From Massilia sp. PAMC28688 (GTDB taxonomy: Bacteria; Pseudomonadota; Gammaproteobacteria; Burkholderiales; Burkholderiaceae_D): DNA of 64,000 nt. A program made the position numbers and the translations under genes. The notes under the pieces are model-generated. The model was not told where the DNA came from and made no database searches. It saw nothing but the letters and a program-made list of their open reading frames with translations. Location: contig NZ_CP080378.1 in assembly GCF_019443445.1 (NCBI RefSeq), forward strand, positions 1,612,001-1,676,000. The letters run 5' to 3'. Of this stretch, positions 26,531 to 28,732 are shown piece by piece. Each line of letters starts with the position of its first letter. The stretch's first letter is position 1.

Positions 26531-27697
26531 TTACGACAAGCCGGCTTCGGCGCGCAGCAGGGCTACCTTGTCGGTGCGCTCCCAGGTGAACTCCGGCTCT
26601 TCGCGGCCGAAGTGGCCATAGGCGGCGCTCTTGCGGTAAATCGGGCGCAGCAGGTCCAGCATCTGGACAATGCCTTTCGGACGCAGGTCAAAGTGTTCCA
26701 TGACCAGCTTGGCAATCTTTTCGTCGGGGATCACGCCCGTGCCTTCGGTGTACACCGTGATGTTGATCGGCTTGGCCACGCCAATGGCATAGCTGACCTG
26801 CACCTGGCACTGGCGCGCCAGGCCGGCGGCCACGATATTCTTGGCCACGTAGCGGGCGGCATAGGCGGCTGAACGGTCGACCTTGGATGGGTCCTTGCCG
26901 GAAAAGGCGCCGCCGCCGTGGGGCGCCGCGCCGCCGTAGGTGTCGACAATGATCTTGCGCCCGGTCAGGCCGCAGTCGCCCTGCGGGCCGCCAATGACGA
27001 AGCGCCCGGTCGGATTGACCAGGTAGCGCGTGCTGCCCAGCCATTCGGCCGGCAGCACCTTCTTGATGATTTCTTCAATGACCGCTTCTTCGATCTGGCT
27101 GTGCGACACCTCCGGCGCGTGCTGGGTGGACAGTACCACGGTATCGACGCCCACCGGACGGCCATTGAGGTAACGCAAGGTGACCTGGGATTTGGCGTCC
27201 GGACGCAGCCACGGCAGGCGGCCATCCTTGCGCAGCTGGGACTGGCGCTCCACCAGGCGGTGGGCATAGTGGATGGCGGCGGGCATCAGTTCGGCCGTCT
27301 CGTCGCAGGCATAGCCGAACATGAGGCCCTGGTCGCCCGCACCCTGGTCAAGGTCCAGGCCGGCGCCTTCGTCCACGCCCTGGGCAATATCGGGCGACTG
27401 CTTGTCATAGCACACCATCACGGCGCAGCCGCGGTAATCAATGCCGAACTCGGTATTGTCGTAGCCGATGCGCTTGATGGTTTCGCGCGCCACCTGGATA
27501 TAGTCGACGTTGGCGTGGGTGGTGATTTCACCGGCCAGTACCACCAGGCCCGTGTTGCACAGTGTCTCGGCGGCCACGCGGGCGCGGGGATCCTGCTCCA
27601 GGATGGCGTCGAGAATGGCGTCGGAAATCTGGTCCGCCACCTTGTCGGGATGGCCTTCGGAAACAGACTCGGATGTGAAGAGGTAATCGTTAGACAT
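26531..27697 (-). CDS. metK: S-adenosylmethionine synthetase
   Basis: Makes SAM from methionine and ATP in the cytosol. 388 residues, normal length. The N-terminal signature is [21 protein letters not shown]. The ATP-binding signature is [12 protein letters not shown], and the phosphate-binding P-loop-like region [23 protein letters not shown]. The ATG has AGGAG six nt upstream. The 5' leader carries a SAM-II-like aptamer and alternative hairpins around that ribosome-binding site. ahcY follows on the same strand behind its own promoter and riboswitch, so the two steps of the methyl cycle are adjacent but separately controlled. Confidence 0.97.
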
Positions 27698-27703
27698 GCA
27701 AAA

Positions 27704-27804
27704 CTCCTGTTACTGGTCAGATTGAAGTCGCAGTAACCGGGTTGCCTGCGACGCTTTAGCGACATTTATATTCCGCTTCGCAAGTTGTCTATTAACTCGG
27801 CGGA
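27704..27804 (-). promoter_or_regulatory. Candidate SAM-II-like riboswitch and expression platform of metK
   Basis: Minus-strand leader. A UCCGC/GCGGA P1 stem encloses a loop with UUAA, GAC and UUGC. After P1 come two nt and AUAAAUGU, then GCUAAA. This matches the SAM-II arrangement, in which UUGC pairs with GC(U)AA and the unpaired U contacts SAM. GAC (loop) can pair with GUC (27750-27752). Downstream, GUCGCAG (27746-27752) pairs with CUGCGAC (27727-27733), while the overlapping GUUACUG (27731-27737) pairs with CAGUAAC (27709-27715), which directly abuts AGGAG (27704-27708). The two hairpins exclude each other. The aptamer assignment is from remembered consensus, not a covariance search. Confidence 0.65.
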
Positions 27805-27880
27805 TCCTGCATACGTGGTATTTTACGCTCCTTGAGAAATTTTGGTCAGGCAACTGACAATATTTAAGCTTCGTCAATCC

Positions 27881-28732
27881 ATGCTAGTTCACCTTTTCCG
27901 CCTGCTGTCCCGGCTCCCCCTTTCCATCCTGCATGCGATCGGCGCGGCCCTGGGCTGGCTCGTTTACCTGGCCTCGCCGTCCTACCGGCGCCGCCTGCGC
28001 GGCAACCTGGTGCAGGCCGGCTTCGGGCAGCACTTGCGCAGTGCTGTGGCCGAGTCCGGCAAGGCCATCGTGGAGCTGCCCTTTGTGTGGTGCGCCGATC
28101 CGGCGCGGGTGGCGCGCCACGCCACGGAAGAGAACTGGGACTATGTGCAGTCGGTACTCGACAGCGGGCGCGGCATCGTGTTCCTGACCCCGCACCTGGG
28201 CTGCTTTGAGATCACGGCCCAGCAAATTGCCCTGCGCACGGCGCTCACCGTCATGTACCGTCCGCCCAAGAAGGCAGCCTTGAAACCCCTGATCGAAGGG
28301 GCGCGCGCGCGCCACAACCTGCACCTGGCCCCGGCCAACCTGTCCGGCGTGCGCATCCTGGCCAAATGCCTGCGCCGGGGCGAGCCGGTGGGCGTGCTGC
28401 CGGACCAGGTGCCGCAAGAGGGGGAAGGCGTGTGGGCGCCCTACTTCGGCAAGCCGGCCTATACCATGACGCTGCCGGCCAAGCTGGCCCAGCTGGGCCA
28501 GGCCGCCATCATCCTCGTGTATGCGGAGCGGCGCGCGCGCGGCCAGGGTTTTGTGGTGCGCTATGTTCCCTTCGATGGCGAACTGAGCGGCAGCGCGGCC
28601 GAGCAGGCCGCCACCATCAACCGCGCCATGGAGCAGCTGATCGCACGCTGCCCGGCCCAGTATTTCTGGAGCTATAACCGCTACAAGCAGCCCGATGGCG
28701 TGGCCGGGCCCGATGCCGGGATGGCTGCATGA
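27881..28732 (+). CDS. Lysophospholipid/lipid A acyltransferase (LpxL/HtrB family), first of pair
   Basis: 283 residues. The start at MLVHLFRLLSRLPLSILHAIG was chosen because the membrane anchor begins there. The HX4(D/E) acyltransferase motif is PHLGCFEI. MYRPPKKAALKPLIEGAR, GVLPDQVPQEGEGVWAPYFGKPA and the C-terminal AQYFWSYNRYK are characteristic of the LpxL/LpxM family, which transfers secondary acyl chains to the Kdo2-lipid A precursor at the inner membrane. The stop overlaps the next acyltransferase start (ATGA). It is divergent from metK, with the metK riboswitch region between them. Which acyl position it modifies is not deducible. Confidence 0.92.
   Translation: MLVHLFRLLSRLPLSILHAIGAALGWLVYLASPSYRRRLRGNLVQAGFGQHLRSAVAESGKAIVELPFVWCADPARVARHATEENWDYVQSVLDSGRGIVFLTPHLGCFEITAQQIALRTALTVMYRPPKKAALKPLIEGARARHNLHLAPANLSGVRILAKCLRRGEPVGVLPDQVPQEGEGVWAPYFGKPAYTMTLPAKLAQLGQAAIILVYAERRARGQGFVVRYVPFDGELSGSAAEQAATINRAMEQLIARCPAQYFWSYNRYKQPDGVAGPDAGMAA

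Follow-up and report, generated by a model that had tools for sequence, protein, structure and literature searches.

A SAM-II-type ligand pocket in the metK leader of Massilia sp. PAMC28688, an unrecognized variant of the SAM-II/SAM-V superfamily

The gene metK, encoding SAM synthetase, occupies positions 26531–27697 on the minus strand of the window (the whole 64,000-nucleotide stretch of Massilia sp. PAMC28688 DNA analysed here), with its ATG at 27697 and a match to TIGR01034 of 597.6 bits (cut-off 309.4). As far as the available text of Leyn et al. (2014; PMC4239095) goes, metK of beta-proteobacteria is under no known methionine regulator and attempts to find one failed. The question raised by this locus is whether the metK leader itself acts as the regulator. 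A reading made from the sequence alone had proposed that it does, through a SAM-II-like aptamer coupled to two competing hairpins, one of which buries the ribosome site.

The metK leader and its neighbourhood

A script check located every sequence element named in that reading, all on the minus strand. Helix P1 consists of UCCGC (27800–27804) and GCGGA (27772–27776). Its loop holds the third strand GAGUUAA (27792–27798), in which G27796 corresponds to SAM-II position 10 and U27795–U27794 to positions 11–12, the P2a 5′ strand GAC (27787–27789; partner GUC, 27752–27750) and the P2b 5′ strand UUGC (27783–27780) with its two-pair extension GA (together 27778–27783). P1 is followed by the A-rich loop L3, AUAUAAAUG (27763–27771), at which some relatives carry a hairpin-like insertion, and then by the extension UC and the P2b 3′ strand GCUAAA (27760–27755; together 27755–27762); AUAAAUGU is located 2 nt past P1. 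Further downstream lie GUCGCAG (27746–27752), whose GUC serves as the 3′ strand of P2a and also begins hairpin H1 on its 5′ side, CUGCGAC (27727–27733), the 3′ arm of H1, and GUUACUG (27731–27737) and CAGUAAC (27709–27715), the two arms of the sequestering helix H2. The Shine–Dalgarno sequence AGGAG occupies 27704–27708, and its GG can pair with CC 27740–27739 in the minimum free-energy fold of the leader and platform. Scanned over both strands, the window contains a single instance of a loose form of the motif. A candidate sigma-70-like promoter, assigned by consensus match alone, lies upstream on the minus strand at 27820–27849 (CTGACC 27849–27844, an 18-nt spacer and TAAAAT 27825–27820); it matches 9 of 12 consensus positions in a scan of the metK leader, and its GCGTAAAATA is kept in 28 of 32 leaders from the window's family (counted by eye). 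On the other side of metK, an SAH riboswitch (RF01057; 26457–26382, minus strand, 65.1 bits) precedes ahcY, which is directly downstream, so that metK is flanked by a SAM-type leader on one side and by an SAH switch on the other. This SAH riboswitch is the sole RNA in the window at Rfam gathering thresholds.

No Rfam family matches 27400–28000, even at E ≤ 10. This holds for SAM-II (RF00521), whose gathering cut-off of 36 bits is not reached, and for SAM-V (RF01826), and the window is likewise without a match to SAM/SAH (RF01727) or to SAM-II long loops (RF01726). The covariance-model match to SAM-II, SAM-V or SAM/SAH by which the sequence-only reading was to be checked is thus missing for the window's own sequence. 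The RF01826 search was silent in 200 genomes of the phylum and equally silent in 14 controls. Among 36 relatives scanned (16 + 20), four (L030, L156, L114 and L115) have RF00521 matches that coincide exactly with the element, at the sub-threshold scores of 19.1, 22.8, 20.4 and 18.9 bits, and in the other 32 nothing is found on the element at E ≤ 10. The metK leader of the window also folds no better than many shuffled sequences (z = −1.18; its stability is equalled or exceeded in 25 of 200). Given this ordinary folding energy and the lack of an Rfam match at E ≤ 10, the window alone is insufficient to reveal the element, and the evidence that bears on it comes from comparison.

Distribution, fold and ligand pocket

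Used as a blastn query, the 161-nt leader matched 35 of 60 sampled genomes, the window's own included, with distant relatives sharing a block of about 61 nt (window 27803–27743). In all 33 loci with a blastn core match metK begins downstream on the same strand. Seventeen cores from the 35 leaders were aligned (A1), with near-identical cores and the long-insert leader L032 left out; GUUAA, GACAACUUGC and GCUAAAGCGUC are invariant among them. In L032 (235–370), which is from the window's family, about 75 nt are inserted between P1 and the GCUAAA strand and the aptamer core is intact. A covariance model made from A1 (R1), in which the P1 pairs alone are encoded, matches 140 of 145 genomes of the window's family (132 at E < 1e-9). 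In the wider samples it matches 262 of 399 genomes for the order, 107 of 274 for the class and 23 of 299 for the phylum, 18 of these 23 belonging to the window's order. The window's own genome is counted in each sample, some members of the samples supplied sequences to the model, the E-values are rough because calibration was short, and the totals are R1 matches rather than metK leaders, since R1 also detects SAM-II-type copies before other genes. How common the element is before metK, which the earlier reading could not say, is answered for the window's family by the 140 genomes together with the 33 of 33 loci in which metK was checked. Three of the five family genomes that lack a match (G024, G991 and G1009; the others are G028 and G1021) belong to a single genus, g9, possibly as the result of a loss. 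One genome of the window's class (G943) has ten R1 matches, several of them paired close together.

An exact pattern scan of named genomes returned at least 120 matching stretches. Among those listed, 103 lie 48–248 nt before metK, five are too close to the end of their locus for their position to be judged and 12 lie elsewhere. Origins are given for 80, of which 74 come from taxa that we take to be beta-proteobacteria; the other six are labelled as four 'Proteobacteria', one uncultured bacterium and one Bacteroidetes. The taxa among the listed matches include Massilia, Duganella, Janthinobacterium, Undibacterium, Herbaspirillum, Oxalobacter, Cupriavidus, Polynucleobacter, Bordetella, Chromobacterium and Thiobacillus.

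The fold was assessed in an alignment of 122 R1 hits (A2) from 100 of 191 loci (L001–L065, L074–L093, L097, L102, L106, L108, L110 and L111 being left out). Its fit made use of the sequence profile and of the pairs in P1, but not of those in P2a or P2b. With P1, P2b, its extension and P2a imposed, 88.9% of cells are paired (P1 92.7%, P2a 77.0%, core P2b 99.6%, extension 71.9%), and the covariation score is 0.175 versus 0.063 in shuffled alignments, none of 500 reaching it, while slid strands give at most 0.092. Both extension pairs, which vary as GC, AU and CG, have changes on either side of the pair, as do five of the six pairs in P1 and three of the four in P2a. No variation is seen in the four core pairs of P2b, which for that reason give no covariation evidence, and P2a hardly varies within the 34 distinct metK rows (L073 left out). 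Covariation is present in P1, P2a and the P2b extension, and the UUGC/GCUAAA core is kept without pair variation, with GCUAAA in all 122 rows. An H-type pseudoknot of P1, P2b and P2a, by which the SAM-II fold is recognized, is found in A2, and this fold is supported by the covariation together with the identity of the pocket.

The pocket was compared with the completely conserved SAM-II residues listed in a structural survey (PMC3764141, in the part available), the register being taken from how the segments follow one another in RF00521 hits of alpha-proteobacteria. The SAM-II residues U11, U12, U20, U21, G22, C23, G42, C43, U44, A45, A46 and A47 are conserved here, and U27758 is the equivalent of U44, the reader of the SAM adenine. 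G8, U11, U12 and G42–A47 are present in 36 of 36 metK rows of A2, and U20, U21, G22 and C23 in all 35 metK rows that have letters at these positions. In the remaining 86 rows U11, U12, U20–C23 and G42–A47 depart solely at G22 (two rows), and G8 departs or is missing in nine. It would be very improbable for a protein-binding or other leader RNA merely to resemble SAM-II to this extent: no covariance model matches above its cut-off, as such a look-alike would predict, but the whole ligand pocket, the covariation of the pseudoknot and the linkage to metK speak against it, and so do RF00521 matches among related copies of the same order. Four of five metX loci match this family at 28.5–36.2 bits, one of them, the copy before metX in G078, lying above the cut-off at 36.2 bits.

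Position 10 is the exception. U is completely conserved there in SAM-II, whereas the metK rows have G in 32 of 36 (the window included) and U in four; among the other 86 rows, 71 have U, 12 have G, two have A and one has a gap. In the SAM-V crystal structure, according to the available text (PMC6061858), the equivalent residue U8 hydrogen-bonds to U47, the partner of the SAM adenine, and a neighbouring U:A·U triple faces the sulfonium. A contact to the adenine-reading U that is altered in most metK rows could indicate a ligand related to SAM, such as SAH, methylthioadenosine or another adenosyl compound. This is considered improbable, since the positions of the U11–A45–U21 triple, which senses the sulfonium charge, are invariant, the product of metK is SAM and the neighbouring ahcY already has an SAH riboswitch. 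It is further weakened by three metK-type rows that have U10 with an unchanged layout (L140, L157 and L164; the fourth U10 row, L073, is of the SAM-II type). As G at position 10 may also donate a hydrogen bond, SAM binding is still the likeliest reading, and SAM is the ligand predicted from the pocket and from the linkage to metK.

The metK leader is thus real, widespread and structured, has a pocket of SAM-II type and represents a variant within the SAM-II/SAM-V superfamily that Rfam does not recognize. Formal membership of RF00521 is not claimed, because the score lies below the cut-off and position 10 departs. The SAM-II-like aptamer proposed from the sequence alone is strongly supported by pocket identity, covariation and metK linkage, and a SAM-type aptamer is highly probable whatever the downstream platform. 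The element would be expected to work like SAM-II or SAM-V.

Proposed hairpin exchange and exposure of the ribosome site

The H-type pseudoknot would present P1 capped by its loop, with the loop strand GUU(AA) lying in the groove of P2b (UUGCGA with UCGC-U-AA) and P2a (GAC with GUC) closing the aptamer. Without SAM, H1 would form once transcribed and consume part of the sequestering arm, leaving AGGAG open so that metK is made. With SAM, the GUC would be held in the aptamer and H1 would lose three pairs; this would let GUUACUG pair with CAGUAAC while the GG of AGGAG pairs with CC, so that metK translation drops. This complete account, a SAM riboswitch with H1/H2 exchange controlling translation, is judged probable as a whole.

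H1 and H2 are mutually exclusive because CUG 27733–27731 is common to both. H1 was examined in 31 leaders from the window's family (L032 and L033 left out, L034 and L035 having no blastn core match), which are not independent, about half belonging to the same genus as the window. Formed through the shared GUC, H1 occurs in all 31 and is conserved in this set; in every one of the 21 leaders listed out of the 31 it gives the best fold before the ribosome site is transcribed. The mean energy of this pre-Shine–Dalgarno segment is −12.3 kcal/mol compared with −5.8 kcal/mol in shuffles, and blocking the GUC costs 6.2 kcal/mol versus 1.1 in shuffles, the loss being larger than in shuffles in 31 of 31. 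The GUC shared by aptamer and H1 and the incompatibility of the two hairpins, as set out in the sequence-only reading, are borne out by this loss. In the window the two are nearly balanced (−15.2 kcal/mol with H1 forced, −15.8 with H2). H2 depends on the clade: GUUACUG/CAGUAAC is found in that of the window, and GCAGGCUC with GAGCCUG in L022–L024 and L027. In several family members, such as L027 and L030, H2 is far more stable than H1.

The proposed burial of the ribosome site with SAM is only partly supported. At equilibrium the exposure of the Shine–Dalgarno sequence is unchanged by the pseudoknot (mean 0.338 for the free and 0.345 for the bound leader, the bound value being the lower one in 11 of 31 leaders). 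With the GUC blocked it is unpaired at 0.27 versus 0.34 in shuffles (24 of 31), a burial barely above that of shuffled sequences. A pure equilibrium switch as the sole mechanism is ruled out by the unchanged exposure, and the exchange, if real, must for the same reason be co-transcriptional, that is, kinetic. In 33 metK leaders of other families (L073, L143 and L163 left out) H1 is absent, the loss on blocking being 0.6 versus 1.1 kcal/mol in shuffles and larger in only 7 of 33, and the Shine–Dalgarno sequence is strongly buried (unpaired 0.09 versus 0.29 shuffled, lower in 31 of 33). The absence of H1 from these leaders indicates that the aptamer is more widely conserved than the H1/H2 platform.

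These results allow for a genuine SAM aptamer that exerts control mainly by other means, with H2 burial always on at equilibrium and SAM acting through P2a stacking, Rho access or mRNA decay. The unchanged exposure at equilibrium, the persistence of the aptamer in families that lack H1 and the much greater stability of H2 in L027 and L030 are what such control would lead one to expect; it nevertheless appears unlikely, given that H1 through the shared GUC is found in every family leader folded, far above shuffles, that H1 and H2 are near balance in the window and that no intrinsic terminator-like site was found within 27600–28000. Hairpin exchange is preferred for the window's family, where its translational level, the order of events and the direction of the response would be as described above.

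Relation to known families and tandem copies

The element shares with SAM-II (RF00521, SAM_alpha) the H-type pseudoknot, P1, the third strand, the UUGC/GCUAAA pocket, the A-rich L3 and P2a, and differs from it in the G at position 10 of the window, a P2b longer by two pairs, a score below the cut-off, its location before metK and a P2a strand that is common to a downstream hairpin. The short P2a, pocket and proposed translational control are as in SAM-V (RF01826), the extended P2 may be a further likeness, and the L3 insertion of some relatives could form a P3-like hairpin (by eye); in the window P3 is absent, the SAM-V residue equivalent to position 10 is U, and no Rfam match links the two. 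The SAM-II pocket is also found in SAM-II long loops (RF01726), but the loops are longer in that family, which according to the available part of PMC2864571 is known from Bacteroidetes and marine sequences. The same partial source reports SAM/SAH (RF01727), which likewise lies before metK, from Rhodobacterales only.

For SAM_alpha, the available text of Leyn et al. (2014; PMC4239095) gives Rhizobiales and Rhodobacterales only. It also describes a pseudoknot element before metXZ in beta-proteobacteria, for which control by a terminator is proposed and which is not called SAM-II there. Like the element described here, it is a pseudoknot RNA before methionine genes of beta-proteobacteria and, matched by description, it probably corresponds to the copies of SAM-II type that precede metZ and metX in the present set. 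A table footnote in PMC8814607 (2022), in the part available, states that the 5′UTRs of metK, metX and metZ of B. thailandensis were suspected of containing regulatory elements, confirmed in unpublished data; the likeness lies in a regulatory element in a metK leader of the same order, and the footnote gives no structure, class or ligand. The available part of PMC12121620 contains nothing on a metK leader RNA, and no description of a SAM-II-type metK element in the window's order was found in the open-licence literature. If the present reading is true, the regulator gap for metK of beta-proteobacteria (PMC4239095, as far as its available text goes) would be filled for a large bacterial group, the unassigned metXZ element would be explained as SAM-II, a missing Rfam family would be supplied and a natural pocket variant would be at hand for work on adenine recognition by SAM-II-type RNAs.

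Of the 122 A2 hits, 36 precede metK. Clustering places 25 loci before metZ-like genes, five before metX-like genes and 15 in a MATE-transporter cluster, the other hits being unassigned, and NCBIfam identifies one representative of each cluster as O-succinylhomoserine sulfhydrylase, MetX and MATE, respectively. Two types of copy can be told apart by eye: a metK type with GAGUUAA or GAUUUAA, GACAACUUGC and GCUAAAGCGUC, and a second type, nearer to textbook SAM-II, with GAUUUGA, CAGCUUGC and GCUAAAGCG. Two copies per locus occur in 22 A2 loci. Of 16 loci inspected by eye, 11 have a tandem in which a SAM-II-type copy is followed by a terminator-like hairpin with a T run, then by a copy of the metK type and a small ORF (L099, L117, L120, L121, L128, L131, L142, L148, L178, L182 and L188). 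The metK-type RNA may represent a distinct SAM riboswitch subclass between SAM-II and SAM-V, in which G10 adjusts affinity or selectivity to match the pool of SAM that SAM synthetase sets and which arose in beta-proteobacteria by duplication beside a transcriptional SAM-II copy, as the tandem loci may still show. This proposal is offered tentatively and is, as a whole, rather doubtful.

The small ORF of the tandem loci encodes about 110 residues beginning MYDC or MFDC, the two examples tested having no Pfam or NCBIfam match, and an ORF of the MATE cluster is next in eight of the 11. At class level, L322 and L324 have the SAM-II type and a terminator-like hairpin directly before metK; these and the two-copy loci recall the SAM-II/SAM-V tandem before bhmT of Pelagibacter described in the available part of PMC2704228. 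R1 matches at L126, L127, L149 and L155 precede ORFs outside the metK, metZ, metX and MATE clusters. A contig labelled Bacteroidetes (L250, 7077–7260) carries two aptamers in tandem, one SAM_alpha-like (31.3 bits) and a second resembling SAM-II long loops and SAM-V (30.6 and 26.5 bits), with a terminator-like hairpin between them as judged by eye, all of these scores being under the Rfam cut-offs.
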